Source: Halobacterium rubrum (GTDB lineage: Archaea; Halobacteriota; Halobacteria; Halobacteriales; Halobacteriaceae). Taken from it: a DNA stretch of 64,000 nucleotides. Below the pieces are notes generated by a model, which had not been told where the DNA came from, did no database searches, and saw nothing but the letters and a program-made list of their open reading frames with translations. Below, piece after piece: positions 7,048 to 52,669 of the stretch. Position 1 is the first letter of the stretch. The number at the start of each line of letters is the position of its first letter. Made by a program: the position numbers and the translations under genes. The stretch covers positions 186,001-250,000 of the forward strand of contig NZ_JAJQQZ010000001.1 of the NCBI RefSeq assembly GCF_021729015.1, in the 5' to 3' direction.

Positions 7048-8082
7048 TCAGAGCGACCGGGCGACGCCCTCGGCGAAGTACGTGACGATGAGGTCTGCGC
7101 CCGCCCGCTTGATGGACAGCAGGCTCTCGCGGGCGACCGCGTCGAGGTCGAGCCACCCCTGCTCGGCGGCGGCGTGCAGCATCGCGTACTCGCCGGAGAC
7201 GTTGTAGGCGGCGACCGGCCGGTCGAACTCGCGGCGCACGTCCGCCACCACGTCGAGGTACGGCAGCGCGGGCTTGACCATCAGGACGTCGGCGCCCTGT
7301 TCGACGTCCAGCGCCACCTCGCGGCCCGCCTCGCGGCGGTTCGCGGGGTCCATCTGGTAGTGCCGGCGGTCGCCGAACGCCGGTGCGCCGTCGGCGGCGT
7401 CCCGGAACGGCCCGTAGAACGCGGACTCGTACTTCGCGGCGTAGCTCATGATGGGGACGTCCGAGAAGCCCGCGTCGTCCAGCGCCACCCGGATGGCGCC
7501 GACCATCCCGTCGGTCATCGAGGACGGCGCGACCATTTCGGCTCCGGCCTCGGCCTGCGAGACGGCGGTCTTCGCGAGCAACTCGAGCGTCTCGTCGTTG
7601 TCCACCGTGAGGTCGGGGTCCTCGGCGGCGTCGTCTTCGAGCACGTTGGAAGAGCAACGCTCTTCCATGCGCTCACTCGCTTCGCTCGTGAGAACCCCGC
7701 AGTGGCCGTGGCTCGTGTACTCGCAGAGGCAGACGTCGGTAATCACGTAGGCGTCCGTCTCGCTCGTGATGCGTCGCGTGGCCTCCTGCACGACGCCGTC
7801 CTCGGCGTACGCCCGGCTGCCGACCTCGTCTTTGGCCTCGGGGATGCCGAAGAGCATGACGGCCTCCACGCCCGTCTCGAGGACTTCCTCGACCCGGGCG
7901 ACGGCGTCGTCCAGCGGGACGCGCTCGTGGCCGGGCATCGACTCGATGGGCTGGCGCTCCTCGGTCGTCGCGTCGACGAACACGGGCGCGACGAAGTCCG
8001 ATGGCGACAGGCTCGTCTCCGAGACGAGGTCGCGGACGCCGTCCCGGCGGAGCCGCCGGGGGCGGTGCGTGAGGTGGTCCAT
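7048..8082 (-). CDS. hemB: Delta-aminolevulinic acid dehydratase (porphobilinogen synthase) with in-frame stem-loop insertion
   Basis: Condenses two 5-aminolevulinates to porphobilinogen. 344 residues. The zinc loop DVCLCEYTSHGHCG (Cys at about 118, 120, 128) marks the Zn-dependent class; the two catalytic lysines are K217 in SYAAKYESAF and K270 in VLMVKPALPY. Between the zinc loop and the conserved EDPDLTVDNDETLELL there is an unusual stretch of about 17 residues (LTSEASERMEERCSSNV, residues 131-147) encoded by two consecutive DNA hairpins at 7647-7692; family members I recall pass from GHCG into the acidic segment almost directly. The insertion keeps the frame. A TATA-like CCCTTTTGCC lies at about 8109-8118. 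It heads the hemB-CPBP unit. Confidence 0.95.
   Translation of the reverse strand: MDHLTHRPRRLRRDGVRDLVSETSLSPSDFVAPVFVDATTEERQPIESMPGHERVPLDDAVARVEEVLETGVEAVMLFGIPEAKDEVGSRAYAEDGVVQEATRRITSETDAYVITDVCLCEYTSHGHCGVLTSEASERMEERCSSNVLEDDAAEDPDLTVDNDETLELLAKTAVSQAEAGAEMVAPSSMTDGMVGAIRVALDDAGFSDVPIMSYAAKYESAFYGPFRDAADGAPAFGDRRHYQMDPANRREAGREVALDVEQGADVLMVKPALPYLDVVADVRREFDRPVAAYNVSGEYAMLHAAAEQGWLDLDAVARESLLSIKRAGADLIVTYFAEGVARSL
7647..7692 (-). repeat. Two consecutive hairpins inside hemB
   Basis: 7647-7667 is a perfect 9-bp inverted repeat TGGAAGAGC / GCTCTTCCA with a 3-nt spacer. 7672-7692, read on the minus strand, has stem CTCAC/GTGAG around the 11-nt core GAGCGAAGCGA, the same core type found in the gaps at 42.9 kb and 51.1-51.4 kb. 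Both lie in the coding frame of hemB and account for its extra residues. Confidence 0.8.
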
Positions 8083-12212: not shown

Positions 12213-12806
12213 ATGCCCGGCCCAGCGTTCGCGGAGGGCGACGCCGTCTCCCTCCACCCGATCGAGGACGAGGACCACGAGTTCATCCAGCGCTACCGCA
12301 ACCATCCCGACGTGCGGGTGCCGCTGACCGACACCCGCATCCGGACGCTCGGTGACGTCGCCGAGTCGGTCGAAGAGGACGACTACCGGTTCCTCATCTG
12401 CGTGGACGAACGAAGTGAGTCCACCGAAAACGCGAGCGGGGACGCAGGACCCGCGAGCAGCGTGGACGACGAGGACGGCGACGACCCGACGCCGGTCGGC
12501 GAGGTGGCATTCGCGTACGTCCACCAGGAGGGCGAGCGCGGCGCCCTGATGTACTGGGTGGCGCCCGAGCACCGGGGCAACGGCTACGTCACGGAGGCCA
12601 CCGAACTGTTCCTGGACTACGCGTTCCGGGAGTGCGGGTTCCACAAGGTGACCGCCCGGGTGCTCGCGTCGAACGAGGCGTCGGCCGGCGCGCTGGAGAA
12701 ACTCGGGTTCCAGCAGGAGGGCCGACGCCGCGAGAACGCGGTCGTCGACGGCGAGCGCGAGGACATGTTCACGTACGGCTTGCTCGCCCGCGAGTGGCTG
12801 AACTGA
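12213..12806 (+). CDS. GNAT N-acetyltransferase (RimJ/RimL-like), tandem copy 1
   Basis: Transfers acetyl from acetyl-CoA to an amine, probably a protein N-terminus or small molecule. 197 residues from ATG 12213, the start that matches its tandem paralogue (MPGPAF). Contains LHPIEDEDHEFIQRYRNHPDVR, ALMYWVAPEHRGNGYVTEATELFL (acetyl-CoA loop with R/Q-x-x-G-x-G/A-like PEHRGNGY) and HKVTARVLASNEASAGALEKLGF, as in RimJ/RimL relatives. Compared with copy 2 it has about 25 extra residues (ERSESTENASGDAGPASSVD) just before the central strand, encoded by two stem-loop elements at 12403-12454. CACCTAACT at about 12181-12189 is at TATA distance. Confidence 0.9.
   Translation: MPGPAFAEGDAVSLHPIEDEDHEFIQRYRNHPDVRVPLTDTRIRTLGDVAESVEEDDYRFLICVDERSESTENASGDAGPASSVDDEDGDDPTPVGEVAFAYVHQEGERGALMYWVAPEHRGNGYVTEATELFLDYAFRECGFHKVTARVLASNEASAGALEKLGFQQEGRRRENAVVDGEREDMFTYGLLAREWLN
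12403..12454 (+). repeat. Two stem-loop elements inserted in frame in GNAT copy 1
   Basis: 12403-12423: stem TGGAC/GTCCA around core GAACGAAGTGA. 12436-12454: stem GCGGG/CCCGC around the shorter core GACGCAGGA. The adjacent paralogue at 12870-13406 lacks this block, which directly shows it as an insertion (or loss in the other copy). Confidence 0.8.
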
Positions 12807-40037: not shown

Positions 40038-42821
40038 TTAGGCGCTTGCGATATCCTTCAGAATATCGGGCGCCTGCTCCAGTGCGTCGTCGAGGCTGTC
40101 GACGTCTGGGCCGCCGCCCTGCGCGAAGTCGGCGGGACCGCCGCCGCCGCCGCCCACCATTCGAGCGAGTTCGCCGACGACCTCGCCGGCGTTCACGGGA
40201 ACGTCGTCGGGGACGCCGACGACGAACTGCGCGCCGTCGGCGCCGGAGCCGACGACCGCGACCTTGCCGCCGTCGACGAGCGCGTTCGCGGTCGCGCGGA
40301 GCTCGTCCATGTCGCCGTCCACGCGCTGGACGACGGCCGTCGTGCCGGCGACGTCGATTTCCTCGCCGGCGCCGCCGCCGGACGCGCGCGCCTCGGCGAG
40401 CTGTTCTTTCAGGTCCTCGATGGTCTTCCCGCGCTCCTTCCACTCGGTGAAGAACCGCTCGGCGGTCTCCGGCACCTCCGACGGCGTCACGTCGAGAATC
40501 TCGGCGGTCGCCAGCAGGTCGTCCTCCAGCTCCTGGACGTGCTCGACGGCGGCTGCGCCGGCGGCGAACGTCAGCCGCTCGACGCCGTCCTGTACGCGCT
40601 CGGCGTTCAGAATCTTGATGGAGCCGATCTCGCCCGTGCGGTCGACGTGCGTCCCGCCACAGGCCTGCACGTCGTCGTCGACGTGCACCAGCCGGATCTG
40701 TTCGCCGGTCGGGATGCCGCCCTGGTAGAGGTCGAAGCCGTACTTCTCCTCGGCCTCGTGGCGGTCCGGCCACTCCCGCTGCACGCTCGTGTTGTCGGTG
40801 ACGACCTCGTTGGCGACGCGCTCGATCTCCTTGACCGTCTCGCGGTCGAGGCGCTCGTAGTGCGTCACGTCGATGCGCGAGGAGTCGACGCCCTTCTGGG
40901 CGCCTGCCTGCCGGACGTGCTCGCCGAGCACCTGCCGGGCGGCGTGAACGACGACGTGCGTCGCGGTGTGGTGGGCCATCAGGCGGCGGCGGCGCTCGGT
41001 GTCGATCTGGCCGCGCACGAACTCGCCTTTGCCCGGGCTCTCGGCGGTCCGGTGGAGGACGACGCCGTCGCGCTCCTGGACGTCCGTCACGTCGACGGTG
41101 CGGTCGTCGGTCGACAGCGTCCCGGTGTCGGCGGGCTGGCCGCCGCCCTCGGGGTAGAACATCGTCTGGTCGAGGACCACGTCGTAGGCGGCCTCGCCGT
41201 CCTCGTCCTCGCGCTCGAAGACGTCGAGGACGACGGCCTCGAACTCCGAGCGGTAGGCGTCGTCGTAGTACAGCGTCTCCGTCTCCGGCAGGTCGGCGAG
41301 GCGCTCGTCGCCGTCGTCGCCGGCCGCCTCCCCGGCGTCGGCCTCGTCGTGGCGGGCCGCCACGAGCGAGTAGAAGTCGTCGGGGGCGTCGACGTCGGCG
41401 CCGACGTCGGCGGCGATGTCCGCCACCATGTCCGGCTGGATGCCGTGGGAGTCGTAGAGCTCGATGAGCTCGCTGGTCGGAATCGGCTCGCCGCGCTCGG
41501 CGTACTCCTCGGCGAGTTGCTCGACGCGACGGCCGCCGCGTTCGAGCGTCTCGGCGTACTTCTCGACCTCCGAGCGCACGATGCTCCGGATGCTGTCGCG
41601 GTTCTCGTAGCCGAGGCGTTCGGCCTGCATGTCGACGAGCTCGTCCAGCGGGACGTCCGCGCCGACGTCGTCGACGAGGCGCTTGGTGCGGCGCAGCACC
41701 ATCCGCGCGAGGTAGCCGGTGCCGACGTTCGACGGCACGATGCCGTCACCGAACATGTACGCCAGCACGCGGGAGTGGTCGGCGATGGCGTAGATGTCCT
41801 CCAGCGGCTCGACGAGCCCGGTGAGGTAGTCGGCGTCGACGCCGAGTTCGCCGGCGACCTCGGCGCGCGCGGTCGCCATGTCGTCGATCTCGTCGATGTC
41901 GAGGTTGCCGGAGAGCTTCGACGCGCGGTGGACGAGCTCGGCCTCTTCGTCGGTGTGCTCGATGCCCGCCTGCTCTTTCAGGAAGTCGATGGTCTCGGGG
42001 TAGACGGCCTCGTAGACGGTCGGGGTGCCCTGGCTCATCCACGTCCAGCGCTCGACCCCGTAGCCGGTGTCGACGACGCGGCGGTCCATCTCCGCGTACG
42101 TGTTGCCGTCTTTCATCTCGTACTCGCCCTCGGGGTCCAGTTCGAGGCTCATGAAGACGAGCGTCGCCAGCTCGAGGCCCTTGTAGATGACCTCGAAGGC
42201 GGGCCCGGCGTTGCCGCCGCCGACCCAGGGGTCCTCGATGAACGTGACCTCGTCCAGCGGGACGCCGACCTCCTCCAGCAGGCCCTCGCAGTATTCGACG
42301 GTCTGGTCCTTCCAGTAGACCTCGCCGTCGTAGGCGTAGTCCGTGCCGTCGTCGGCGTTGAACGCGTGGTGGCCGAGCATCTCGAACGCCATCGTGTGCC
42401 GGCCGGTCTTCCCGACGTTGTCGATGTCCTGCATCCGGATGCAGGGCTGGCTCACTACCAGTGGGTTCGCGGGCGGCGGCGACTCGCCGCTCGTGACGTG
42501 GGGCTGGAAGTCGTAGATAGAGGCCTGCGTGAGCAGGACGTCGTCCCGCCAGCGGTTCGCCGCGACGGGGTAGGGGTCGATGCGCTCGTGGCCCTCGCGC
42601 TCGAAGTACGAGAGCATCTCCTCGCGCATCTCGGTCAGCGAGTACTCCTCCTCGAAGCCGGGGTCGTCGATGAACTGGTAGTCCTCGCAGGGCGGTTCGC
42701 CGCAGGTCTCGCGGTCGCCGTCACGGGTCCAGAAGTGCGCACCACACTCCACGCACTCCGTTCGGTGGAACCCTTCCTCCTCGAAGTACTCGAGGCGGTA
42801 GGCGGACTCGAGGTCGCTCAT
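40038..42821 (-). CDS. alaS: Alanyl-tRNA synthetase
   Basis: Charges tRNA-Ala and clears mischarged Ser/Gly. 927 residues from ATG 42821. Archaeal-type N-terminus with a CxxC...CGEPPC zinc-like region ([19 protein letters not shown]), class II catalytic core ([43 protein letters not shown]), editing domain with [17 protein letters not shown] and [13 protein letters not shown], and a C-terminal C-Ala domain ending in a Gly-rich [15 protein letters not shown] stretch. TATA AGTAAAAC at 42845-42852. It is followed downstream by the AT-rich island. Confidence 0.97.
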
Positions 42822-42852: not shown

Positions 42853-43033
42853 AGTTCCGGGACTGCGAGAGCCAAGCGAGCGCAGCGAGCGCGGGTCTCG
42901 GGCGTGCGAACGGCGAACGGAGTGAGCCGTGAGTTGCGAGCGCCGCGAGGCACCGTCAGGCGCCTCGGAAGGAGTGAGCGGTGACCGCAGGGAACCGCGA
43001 GACGCGAGCCGTCTCCGTACGGGCGACCAGTCG
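42853..43033. repeat. Gap with several GA-flanked stem-loop elements (alaS/dsbA-like)
   Basis: 42910-42930: stem ACGGC/GCCGT around core GAACGGAGTGA. 42978-42998: stem GCGGT/ACCGC around core GACCGCAGGGA. 42878-42888 is core GAGCGCAGCGA with only a 2-bp flank. 42999-43015 is a separate hairpin GAGACG/CGTCTC with a 5-nt loop. No gene fits here. Confidence 0.75.
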
Positions 43034-48007: not shown

Positions 48008-51000
48008 CTACGCCGATTCGTCGGCGTTCAACGCGACCGAGGCCAGCAGCGCCTCGAGCTGGACGCGCTCGTTGGCGCCCTCGGCGATGCGGTAGTCGGC
48101 CTCGCCGAGCCGGTCGAGCAGCCTGACGGCGGCGGCCTCCTCGACGTCGAAGCTCCAGACGGAGCGGTGGATCTGGTCGATGATGTCGCCGCCAGCGAGC
48201 CCGCGGTTCGTCAGGAGGTCGTCCAGCGTCGCTCGCGCGGCCGTGAAGTCGCCGCCGAGCGCCTCCGTCACCATCGCCTCGATCTCCTCGGGTCGCGCCG
48301 TCGCCGTGATGGCGTAGACGGTCTCCTCGTCGACGACCTCGCCGGTCGCGGAGGCGGCTTGCAGGGCGTTGATGGCGCGCCGCATGTCGCCGTCCGAGGC
48401 GTACACGAGTGCGTCGATGCCGTCCGACGTGTACTCCAGGTCCTCCTTCTCGGCGATGGTGCGGAGGTGGTCGGCGACGGCGTCGTCGCCGAGCTGCGCG
48501 AACCGGAAGACTGCACAGCGGGACTGGATGGGGTCGATGATCTTCGAGGAGTAGTTACAGGAGAGGATGAACCGCGTGTTGTTCGAGAACTGCTCCATCG
48601 TCCGGCGGAGCGCTGATTGCGCGTCGTCTGTGAGGGCGTCTGCCTCATCGAGGAAGATCACCCGGTAGTCGTGGCCGCCGAACGACGACCGCGCGAAGTC
48701 CTTGATGCGGTCCCGGACGACGTCGATGCCGCGCTCGTCGCTGGCGTTCAGTTCGAGGAAGTTGTCCTGCCAGTCGTCCTCGTAGATCTCCTTCGCGATG
48801 GACACCGCTGAGGCAGTATTGTGCATCGTTGTCGGGACGTTGCCGGCGACGAAATTGTGCGTCTCGGGGACGGTGAGGTCGTACACTCTCGTCGGCTCGC
48901 CGTTGCGTTCGACCGCCTGAACTGCATCGTAGTAGAGGTCGGCAGACGCCAGCAGTTCCAGCGACCGCATCTGCGCCGCCACGTCGAGCGAGAGCATCCG
49001 TTCTGCCGCACGCTCCAGTTCTGCTGCGACGGTCTCGAACCGCGTGAGGGACCGCAGACTGTGGTCGTCGTTTGTCAGGAGGTTGTTCACCGCCACACCA
49101 CGGTACGGGGTGCCGTCGGCGAGTTCCTCGTAGGAAACACCGAGTGACTCGCGAACGCCTTCGAGGGTCTCCTGGACTGCCCCGACGTTCGGCTCGCTCT
49201 CATCGAGCTCGGCGAGCAGCCGTCCGACTCGCCGACCGGTCGGCGTTCGTCGGCCGTCGGCGTACTCCAGCAGTCGGTCAGTTCGCGCATCGACCGTCTC
49301 CGCGATCGCTTTCCGCTCGTCGAGCGGCTCCAGCTGGGGCCTGTTCTCCACCCACGCCGTCGCGGCTCCAGTCACTGCAGCGAGTTCGGACTGGGTAGCT
49401 TCGAGGGAGTCCAGTGCAGTCTGTGCCGCGTCGAGTTTGTCGTCGGCCGCGTCCAGCACGTCGTCGAGTGCCGTCAGGTACTGCTCTCGCGCTCGCGCGT
49501 CGCTGCACAATTCGCCGACGAGGCCCTCCTTCTGGAGGTTGAGACGGCGACACAGTCGGTCGACCGACGCTTGAACTGGCATCGTGTCGTGGTTCGGGTT
49601 CGAGTCACGCGCCGCCGCGTCGGCGAGCCGCGAGGCCTTCTCCCCGATTGTGAACCCGACCGCCGACTCGAATCTGGCGAGGTCGCGCGCTCCCGAAACG
49701 TAGAGCGTGTGGTACTCGCGCTCGATTCCCGTCCCGTTCGTCGCGGCCTTCTGCTCGCGCTTTCGGCGCGCCGGGATGCCGAACCCCGCGAGCAGGTACG
49801 TGAGCGCCGAGACGAACTCGCCGTCTTTCTGCGAGAGTTCGATGGCGCCTTTCTTCGTCACGTAGCCTTCGGCGTCGAAGACCGCCCGCAGGAACGCGCT
49901 CCGGGTCTCGTCGCTCGCCTCGAGCAGCGTCGAAACGATGCCGTCACCGGTCACGTCGAAGCACGCCTCGAGGTACGCCGACAGCGTAGCGCTGATCGCG
50001 TGAACGAACGGGACGCCCTTGCGTTCTCGTCGCTCGCAGGACAGCCCGAACTCGTCTTCGAGCGTCGTCTCGACGTGTTCGAGCAGCCGCTCGTCCTCGT
50101 TGTAGAACCGGAGACGACCACCGTCGACCCGGGCTTCGCTCACCACCAGCCCGAGGAACCGCGCGAGGGACGCGTCGACTCGTTCTGGTGGCGTGATCGG
50201 CGCCGAGCGCAGATTGTTCGCATTCACGTACTGGATGCTCTCGATGTGGTTCGCAACGTCGTCGTAGTCGAACCTGTCTCGGAGGTAGGCGAGCGAGCAG
50301 ACGGTAGAGGACGCAGCGAGGTCACGATCGGCGACATCGTTGGCGTACGCCTCGACCGTGTCTCTCGGGACGTCGAGCACGTCGCTGGCGGTGTCGACGT
50401 TTCCGTGTCGCCGGAGCTCCCGTACGACTCGCTTCTTCGCTCCGACGTAGTTCTCCTCGGCAGGAATTCCGGCCGTGGCAGCGAACCCGTCGTCGAGGTG
50501 GACGAGCGTCCGGTCACCGTCCATCGCCTCGTACCAGTCAATTCGACCGTCACCGCCGGGGGCCGGCGCGTGGAGTGGACGGGCAACCCGATCGCCAGCC
50601 GTCAACTCCTCGGCAGGCGTCCAGGAGAGCCCCTCACCGTCGACGGTCAGGAGGGGATGTTCAGGTGTGACCGTGAACTCGCCGCCGTCGCGCGTCGAGA
50701 CCGTCACTGTCTCGTCGGCCTGCCGGCTGAACACGTCCGATGGTGGCGCGTACTCGAAGTCGCCGTCCTCGGTGAACGTCGCCACTTCGAGATCGGGGCG
50801 GGGAGACTCGAAGCCGTCGACGTCACCGACCACGTCCTCGACCCGCTCGACGCCGTCGTTCGTCAGCACGGGGGTTTCGCCAGTGAGACACTTCCCGGTA
50901 CCCGCTGGACCTGCGAAGAGCAGGTGGGGGAGGTCGTCGCGGTCGACGTAGCTCTGCAGGCGCTCCGTGATGTCGGGGTGTCCGACGACGTCCTCGAGGC

Positions 51001-51058
51001 GCTCCGGTCGATACTTCTCGACCCAGATTTCCTGCCGGCCGCCAGCGGCGTCTGCCAT
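48008..51058 (-). CDS. rfcS: Replication factor C small subunit containing an intein in the P-loop
   Basis: Clamp-loader ATPase that opens the PCNA ring. 1016 codons from ATG 51058; spliced length would be 325, normal for RfcS. N-extein (1-56) ends [11 protein letters not shown], and the C-extein resumes at residue 748 with [10 protein letters not shown], so splicing restores the Walker A GTGKT. The C-extein has [43 protein letters not shown] (Walker B), [20 protein letters not shown] (sensor 1 and arginine finger region) and the C-terminal collar. TATA TGTTTAAGTC at 51081-51090. An alternative start at 51091 would place the TATA inside the ORF. Confidence 0.96.
48818..50890 (-). mobile_element. 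Intein (691 residues) in RfcS with LAGLIDADG endonuclease and extra helical region
   Basis: Self-splicing element. Starts with Cys (TGT at 50890-50888), block [16 protein letters not shown]; block B has the TxxH as [10 protein letters not shown]; block [17 protein letters not shown]; ends TTMHN with Thr as +1 residue. LAGLIDADG motifs at intein residues 245-253 (FLGLVVSEA) and 334-343 ([10 protein letters not shown]) keep an acidic catalytic residue each, so both splicing and homing look intact. Residues 434-655 are an additional mainly helical, coiled-coil-like segment not needed for either function. Confidence 0.95.
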
Positions 51059-51080
51059 GCACGGACGGTGGGGCGTGTGG

Positions 51081-51090
51081 GACTTAAACA
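51081..51090 (-). promoter_or_regulatory. TATA box of rfcS
   Basis: TGTTTAAGTC on the minus strand, centred 28 bp upstream of ATG 51058; supports that start. Confidence 0.7.
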
Positions 51091-51517
51091 CCGCGAGACA
51101 TGCGAGACCCGAGCGAGCGAAGCGAGTGCGTGGCTCGGAGGGAGTGCGCGGTTCGGAACGAGCGACGCGAGTGAGAACCGCGTCACGCGAACGGGACTTG
51201 TCCCGTGAGCGCGCGAACGGAGTGAACGACTGAGAGCCACGGATTACGTGAGCGGCGAACGGGGTGAGCCGCGAACTGCGAGGGTCTCGGGATAGCGAAC
51301 GGGGAGCGCGTGGCCGACCGGCGGGAGGCCACGGTGCGGACGAGCGGGGAGCGGAGCGACCCGCGAGGAGCGGAGCGACCCGTGAGCCGCGCGGTGGCGG
51401 TGCGGTGGGTGAACGAGCGAAGCGGGGGAGGGTCTCGAGGATGCGGGCGCCTCGAAATCTCGTGTCGTCCCGCAGCCGGTCGTCCGACGCTGTGTCGCCG
51501 TCTGCGACGGCGCAGCT
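51091..51517. repeat. Dense tract of GA-flanked stem-loops (rfcS to bactofilin-like gene)
   Basis: This is the only gene-free stretch above 300 bp. 51109-51138: CCGAGC/GCTCGG enclosing GAGCGAAGCGA. 51147-51182: 8-bp CGCGGTTC/GAACCGCG enclosing a nested GA-AC-GA-GC-GAC-GC-GA-GT-GA series. 51191-51206: ACGGGAC/GTCCCGT hairpin. 51252-51272: GCGGC/GCCGC around GAACGGGGTGA. 51309-51333: CGTGGCC/GGCCACG around GACCGGCGGGA. 51344-51364: GCGGG/CCCGC around GAGCGGAGCGA, with a second core copy at 51368-51378. No protein with halophile-like composition fits any frame. Confidence 0.8.
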
Positions 51518-51550: not shown

Positions 51551-52669
51551 ATGAACAGGAAACAGGTGCGAGCCGTCGCGCTCGCCGTCGTGCTCGTCGT
51601 CTCGATGCCGGCACTGGTCGGCGTGGCGGCGGCCGAGGAGCGGTTCGGCGGCACCGTCGTGGTGGAGGAGGGTGAGACTGTCAGCGACGACCTGCAGGCG
51701 GTCGGCGGGACCGTGGTCGTTCGCGGGACCGTGGACGGGAATCTGGAGGCGTTCGCGGGGTCAGTCGTGCTCGCGGAGGGCGGGACGGTCACCGGGACCG
51801 TGCAGGGTGCTGCCGGCAGCGTCACGATCGCCGGGTCGGTCGGCGAGGACGTGGAGATCGCCGGCGGGAGCATCGACGTCGCCGAGACCGCGACCATCGC
51901 CGGGGATGTGGACACCGGCGCCGGGTCGTTCACGCTGGACGGGCGCGTCGACGGCACCGTCCGGGTCGGCGCCGGGTCGATTCTGCTCGGGTCGACGGCG
52001 TCGGTCGGCGGCGACTTCCTCTACGACGGCGACCTCTCGCAGAGCGGCGGTGCGACCGTCGACGGTGAACTCCGGCAGGACGACAGCATCGCCAGCGGCG
52101 GCGGCTTCCAGAGCAGCGGGATGCAGGTGGCGAGCTGGCTGTTCACGGCGTACGGCGTCGCCGTGACGCTGGTGTTCGGCGTCATCGTCCTCGCCCTGCT
52201 GCCGGGCGTGGCGGCGGCGACCGTCTCCGACACGCGCGAGCAGCCGGCGCGGACGGCCGGCATCGGGTTCCTCGCGCTGTTCGCCGGGCCCGCGCTGTTC
52301 GCTGCACTCCTGTTGACAATCGTCGGCATCCCGCTGGCGTTCCTGTGGCTGCTCGTGTACGGGCTGCTGGTGCTGGTCGGGTTCGTGCTCGGCGAGTACG
52401 CGGTCGGCGCGTGGCTGCTGTCGCTGGCGGACTACGAGAACCGGTGGGTGGCGCTGCTGGTCGGCGTGCTGGCCGTGTTCGCTCTCGGTGAAGTCCCCAT
52501 CCTCGGTGGGCTCGTGGAATTCGTCGTGCTCCTGCTGGGGCTCGGCGCGCTCGCCGCCGTGCTCTGGCGGCGAATCCGGGGCCGGCGCCGGACGGAGACG
52601 GCCGCCGACGCAGCCGCCAGCACCGGCGACCAGGCCGGGGCGGCCGACGACGGCGAGCCGACGGCCTGA
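51551..52669 (+). CDS. Bactofilin-like polymer-forming membrane protein
   Basis: 372 residues from ATG 51551; ACGTTTATC at 51519-51527 is the TATA element. Sec signal peptide ([21 protein letters not shown]), then about 150 residues of short strand-turn units with strong right-handed beta-helix periodicity ([69 protein letters not shown]), as in bactofilins. Then four to five membrane segments (residues 195-345) and a charged tail. The beta-helix would face outside, unlike cytoplasmic bacterial bactofilins, so a surface or envelope scaffold role is likely. Confidence 0.82.

Follow-up and report, generated by a model that had tools for sequence, protein, structure and literature searches.

REP/BIME elements and REPINs, which are associated with RAYT transposases in bacteria, are short, clustered and strand-coherent extragenic palindromes that are defined by their hairpins. 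RAYT itself is a member of the Y1_Tnp family (PF01797). At the level of a single hairpin, the d(GCGAAGC)-type C(GNA)G minihairpins and the promoter hairpins of phage N4 have a C-GNA-G tip that forms an extraordinarily stable single-stranded DNA fold. These are synthetic oligonucleotides or single sites, whereas the repeat reported here is dispersed through genomes and is likened to them by sequence. In haloarchaea, the PATEs of Haloquadratum walsbyi carry palindromes related to the ends of IS605-type transposons (PMC3119063). They are transposase-free, lack terminal inverted repeats, have near-terminal palindromes and occur in many copies; terminal-only forms go down to 52 bp and insertions strike their palindromes, in all of which they resemble the present repeat (PMC3119063). 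SMR-A of Haloquadratum is likewise haloarchaeal, short and transposase-free and inserts into the palindromes of mobile elements (PMC3119063). The Rickettsia palindromic elements are, like the repeat, palindromic and mobile, and lie in frame in conserved protein genes, where they add a short tolerated peptide (PMC10969869). Both differ from the 59-61 bp unit of the repeat in size, at about 110 bp and about 150 bp, respectively, and in that the repeat nests in its own kind. In addition, SMR-A has prominent terminal inverted repeats (PMC3119063), whereas the unit has none, and the Rickettsia elements are bacterial (PMC10969869), whereas the repeat is mostly intergenic.

The sequence analysed, called the window, is a stretch of 64,000 nucleotides (G000:C1:186001-250000) from a haloarchaeal genome of 3.07 Mb and 70.6% GC. 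The rfcS gene starts at 51058 on the minus strand and the next ORF at 51551 on the plus strand. The array-bearing gap between them, given as 430 bp in the initial annotation, was confirmed but has a full size of 492 bp. It had also been called the only gap above 300 bp, which was not confirmed: gene calling with a simple codon model gave five others in the window, 442-1437 bp long, although missed genes may lie in some of them. The intein ascribed to rfcS was borne out by Pfam, and several congeners have an intein-free rfcS. The plus-strand gene is read as a bactofilin-like, polymer-forming membrane protein, to which Pfam gives no match. The array begins past a conserved rfcS promoter block that most relatives share (Table 1).

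Table 1. Features of the rfcS gap and of other loci in the window (window coordinates)
Feature	Position	Strand	Evidence
Divergent intergenic gap, array-filled	51059..51550		Gene calls and ORFs; relatives' gaps mostly 113-243 bp
rfcS with large LAGLIDADG intein	48008-51058	-	Pfam Intein_splicing and LAGLIDADG
Conserved rfcS promoter block, TTAA box and CGCGAGAC	51080..51099	-	Block visible in most relatives' gaps
Outermost hairpin GAGACCC...GGGTCTC	51104..51288	+	Comparison with close relative G004
Nested hairpin-1 type stem GTGGCTC...GAGCCAC, broken by further hairpins	51130..51240	+	
Nested hairpin CGCGGTTC-(GA/AC/GA/GC-GAC-GC/GA/GT/GA)-GAACCGCG, 2-bp/GA alternation	51147..51182	+	
Variant hairpin 2, CGC-GA-ACGGGAC-TT-GTCCCGT-GA-GCG	51186..51213	+	
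Second covariance-model match in gap	51209..51275	+	35.6 bits, E 4.8e-5
Hairpin 2 GA-GCGGC-GA-AC-GGG-GT-GA-GCCGC-GA, within match 51209..51275	51250-51274	+	
Outer hairpin 2, halves 51296-51307 and 51375-51386	51296..51386	+	10-bp pairing between the two halves, tandem GA included
Intact two-hairpin unit, hairpin 1 51309-51333, hairpin 2 51341-51367	51308..51367	+	Model R1, 70.8 bits, E 2.4e-12
Degenerate 3' element GTGAACGAGCGAAGCGGGGGAGGGTCTCG	51408..51437	+	Repeat families D1 and D6
Two more units, gap between alanyl-tRNA synthetase gene (40038-42821, -) and 43034-43714 gene (-)	42865..43001	+	E 2.3e-6 and 1.1e-6
Unit within GNAT acetyltransferase ORF (12213-12806, +), in-frame reading CVDERSESTENASGDAGPAS	12400..12457	+	

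The many stem-loops described in the gap are present, as are the nested hairpin in which 2-bp stems alternate with opposed GA steps and the two near-identical cores, found at about 51339-51376. All tandem-GA/GNA hairpins of the gap are on the plus strand, and most of the hairpins share one plan: an outer stem, GA, 2 bp, a loop of three bases (GNA in most cases), 2 bp, GA and the stem again. The outer hairpin 2 is split at its apical loop by an inserted unit (51308-51374). A copy inside the apical loop of a host hairpin explains the two near-identical cores, the second core being the 3' half of the host hairpin. The outermost hairpin is likewise broken in its inner part, by about 155 nt of extra units; its counterpart in G004 is a short closed hairpin. 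Elsewhere in the window, an isolated hairpin, CACGAGCGAAGCGAGTG, was seen on the minus strand at 7674-7690.

The folding energy of the 427-nt gap sequence did not surpass that of shuffles (z -0.90 and -0.19), an uninformative result because any sequence of 70% GC folds well. The core motif itself was surveyed in 464 kb of the source genome, 60.9 kb of it intergenic by the simple codon-model caller. The most enriched class of intergenic internal mismatches in this survey was GA/GA next to an inner stem of 2 bp that closes a 3-nt loop; the loops were mainly GAA, GCA and GGA and the inner stems GC, CC and AC. The core GA-NC-GNA-GN'-GA, with N and N' paired, occurred 53 times in the intergenic portion (about 61 kb) and 13 times in coding sequence, while mirror and scrambled cores had 0-9 intergenic occurrences. 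Pairing extended beyond the core, with outer-stem positions 1-6 paired far above shuffles (z 3.7-7.2).

Alignment of copies defined a unit of 59-61 nt in which about 6 nt of linker separate hairpin 1 from hairpin 2. The consensus of hairpin 1 is GCGTGNNC-GA-CC-GNA-GG-GA-GNNCACG and that of hairpin 2 is C-GA-GCGGG-GA-GC-GNA-GC-GA-CCCGC-GA-G. In a 28-copy alignment all 12 tandem-GA bases were invariant, 11 of the 17 pairs showed double changes and 96.8% of the cells were paired. Compensatory changes were found in 61 cells against 20.1 in shuffles, a value reached by none of 500 shuffles, and the signal was lost when the pairing partners were slid. Judged by this covariation, the structure of the repeat is strongly conserved. 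Minimum free energy folding of the tested copies gave hairpin 2 and the stem of hairpin 1; in both the DNA and the RNA folds, the GA strand was more stable than the complementary strand.

A covariance model of the unit, R1, found 57 copies in the source genome. In a phylum-wide sample, copies were present in 19 of 24 Halobacteriales genomes and in none of 124 genomes outside the order; the R1 search of one congener, G006, yielded no match. The best-preserved part of the array (51295-51400) found copies by blastn in 25 of 40 relatives, and an independent pattern, CGAACGRAGTGAGCG, was present in 33 of the 40 and its mirror image in none. A viral vector was rejected, since viral contigs gave only 4 matches. 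So was a bacterium-wide origin; the 17-mer occurs in many bacteria, yet its stems there mostly do not extend.

Together with the nesting and the comparisons of loci given below, these data suggest that the rfcS gap holds nested copies of a two-hairpin DNA repeat that is mobile but non-autonomous; the repeat would be Halobacteriales-wide and the array lineage-specific. We give this reading a probability of about 0.75.

Comparison of the gap among relatives, the check proposed in the initial annotation, showed conservation of the genes and not of the elements. The rfcS/bactofilin-like gene pair is syntenic in 17 relatives, and the gap is filled in only 4 of 18 genomes, the source genome (492 bp) and G004, G010 and G001, all of one genus. 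The gaps of the other relatives are mostly 113-232 bp and contain no elements. The link to rfcS drawn in that annotation is thus not supported: despite the synteny the array is confined to the source genome and three congeners, and the same repeat type occupies dozens of unrelated gaps and also lies within genes. The promoter of rfcL is filled in eight congeners and empty in five. Its units start after TTGCGGA in all eight filled congeners and vary in number, with five in the source genome, and their presence or absence distinguishes G001 from G010 despite nearly identical flanks. The sharing of the rfcL site could reflect one old insertion plus losses.

Arrays thus lie upstream of both rfcS (4 genomes) and rfcL (8 congeners), with the GA strand opposite the rfc gene at each, and a further copy lies within the gene of the DNA polymerase D large subunit. 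Such placement would be accounted for if selection kept a DNA structure at rfcS and rfcL that acts in cis on regulation or is linked to replication. We consider this highly improbable because the rfcL array is absent in five congeners and the rfcS array in most relatives, unrelated housekeeping genes are flanked by other arrays, and G006 of the same genus has no R1 match. A general association with replication genes (rfcS, rfcL, DP2) was also rejected, since the remaining neighbours that were inspected are housekeeping genes of various kinds (alanyl-tRNA synthetase, Hsp20, NFACT, iPGM, RNase J-like).

Seven copies lie inside genes and add 18-21 residues each. The host genes encode the GNAT acetyltransferase in the window, TruA, iPGM, the DNA polymerase D large subunit, an RNA methyltransferase, a Hel308-like helicase and CobN. 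The TruA insert, of 18 residues, is present in 3 genomes and absent in at least 10. Like the Rickettsia elements, the repeat thus occurs in frame within genes whose orthologues, as with truA in 10 or more relatives, are empty. Short palindromes would in this way become inserted loops of conserved archaeal proteins such as TruA, iPGM and DNA polymerase D.

All seven in-gene copies are on the sense strand and six are in the same phase. A sense bias is what would be seen if the GA strand were transcribed into a structured RNA or served as an RNA-level element (small RNA, terminator or UTR stabiliser). Single units folded as RNA from the GA strand are better than shuffles (z -2.5 to -4.4), and tandem sheared GA is stable in RNA too. 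The bias can however come from the acidic peptide encoded in that frame, and the extraordinarily stable C(GNA)G loops are a class of DNA minihairpin. At the 5' ends of flanking genes the ratio of same to opposite orientation of the GA strand is 10:11, and at their 3' ends it is 8:9. This random orientation argues against an RNA, such as a leader or a dedicated small RNA, and against a terminator; these counts led to the rejection of a strand-dependent function with respect to genes, as terminator or UTR. A search of 4227 Rfam models gave one match, at chance level and outside the array. The RNA explanation is therefore very unlikely. The initial annotation had left the choice between a structured RNA and a DNA structural element; the latter stands in kind, by the covariation, and the former is disfavoured by the lack of an Rfam match and of strand preference.

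Self-nesting extends beyond the rfcS gap. Of 69 copies, 7 had stems of 8 or more between their two flanks, where shuffled partners gave an expectation of 0.43; the strict nested cases number seven only and some may share one lineage. Nested copies and their host copy differ in stem sequence. Units also recur in tandem, every 61, 63 or 77 bp; in some of these arrays the stems vary in sequence, and in others the copies are identical. At G000:C1:912453-912756, five units follow one another at spacings of 61-64 bp, and their hairpin-1 stems differ in part; this array lies between a gene for an RFC-large-subunit-like AAA+ protein and a pyridoxamine oxidase-like gene. Arrays in G011, one of about seven identical 77-bp units and one of about six 63-bp units, represent recent amplification. 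At the rfcL promoter of G001, about 20 bp from the upstream flank (CGTTTRGTGGTTGCGGAGCG) recur after the array, as though a long direct duplication enclosed the insert.

Replication template switching typically acts on quasi-palindromes that are GC-rich, and such quasi-palindrome correction at GC-rich spots could make and keep palindromes with no transposition, spreading them only by tandem duplication and recombination. The existence of tandem arrays and the duplications that flank the rfcL array in G001 and are also seen at tRNA genes would fit this process. Template switching mends mismatches, yet the tandem-GA bases are invariant; the same two-hairpin unit recurs at unrelated sites and within genes; and the stem sequences of nested copies are unlike those of the host copy. 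We regard this explanation as unlikely.

For the mobile repeat, we propose that the unit is mobilised in the form of a folded single strand and that a trans-acting recombinase reads the tandem-GA stem and the C(GNA)G tip. Insertion may occur 3' of a GAGC-like sequence, such as is present at the tip of hairpin 2, the 3' end of the unit and the rfcL promoter; this would explain the 61-bp head-to-tail arrays, the tip nesting and the strand coherence together. GAGC, a possible 4-bp target duplication, is found at both ends of nested copies, where it may equally be element-borne; at isolated copies any preference for it is weak at best. Selection for mobility, perhaps joined by selection for DNA folding that is tolerated, would then keep the hairpins. 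The rfcS-gap array would be a lineage-specific result of such insertions between two divergent promoters. A bolder version, put forward tentatively and in our judgement somewhat doubtful, is that of an order-wide archaeal family defined not by sequence but by a non-Watson-Crick single-stranded fold, in which stems that covary freely carry C(GNA)G tips and tandem G-A pairs that do not vary. A non-Y1 enzyme would read this fold and insert into hairpin tips, building self-nested arrays and in-frame peptides in essential proteins. If tip nesting is structure-guided, it points to a recombinase that acts on folded single-stranded DNA.

A search for the Y1 (IS200/IS605/RAYT) transposase PF01797 gave no match in G000, G004, G005, G007, G008, G012 and other carriers. 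RAYT/Y1 was therefore rejected as the mover, and the repeat differs from REP/RAYT systems in this respect and in having its stems built around tandem GA mismatches. Like PATEs, the unit is too short for a transposase and has two hairpins and no matching inverted ends; the terminal inverted repeats of MITEs are also absent. PATEs also have a fixed short 5' target sequence and no target duplication; in the repeat, GAGC that may be its own lies beside nested copies. A defining trait of PATEs is IS605-related palindromes; the elements compared here gave the repeat no such relation, and its source genome shows no Y1 transposase match. Ten haloarchaeal IS605/TnpB elements gave no R1 match (best E 0.43) and had no GA-NC-GNA-GN-GA core near either end; their hairpins were different, or none were recognised. 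IS605 ends were thus ruled out as parent for the ten elements sampled, and the repeat was not filed as a PATE because none of these has its hairpin type at the ends.

A description of the repeat was not found in the open literature, to which the search was confined. It is probably a palindromic mobile repeat that is non-autonomous, folds unusually and nests in itself, and as far as could be found it is undescribed in Rfam or the open literature. Haloarchaeal intergenic DNA thereby gains a defined and searchable mobile repeat family, the conserved feature of which is a fold with tandem G-A pairs. Gaps filled in this way are not to be taken for gene-specific regulatory RNAs.

Some related sequences were seen in passing. 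In Halobacterium salinarum, a laboratory haloarchaeon that has been studied well, pNRC200 has an unannotated copy (315286-315349). It sits in the tip of a CCTGCC-GA-GC hairpin, and a TnpB gene lies about 440 bp away. Outside the order, the archaea G267 and G260 have the tip GA-CC-GNA-GG-GA on unrelated stems that are partly AT-rich, one locus being 42% GC. In Acidobacteria, Bacteroidetes, Micromonospora and Rubrobacter the same tip, with a loop base that varies, is found in multi-copy sequences, possibly convergent repeat families. Units or related GA hairpins also lie directly 3' of tRNA genes (Gly, Leu, Tyr) at several loci, including G022:C1 at about 1878107-1878781. Some of these units alternate with copies of the tRNA 3' end, as in a 111-bp repeat of G022, and the tRNA-adjacent sequences possibly form a second, tRNA-linked repeat family.
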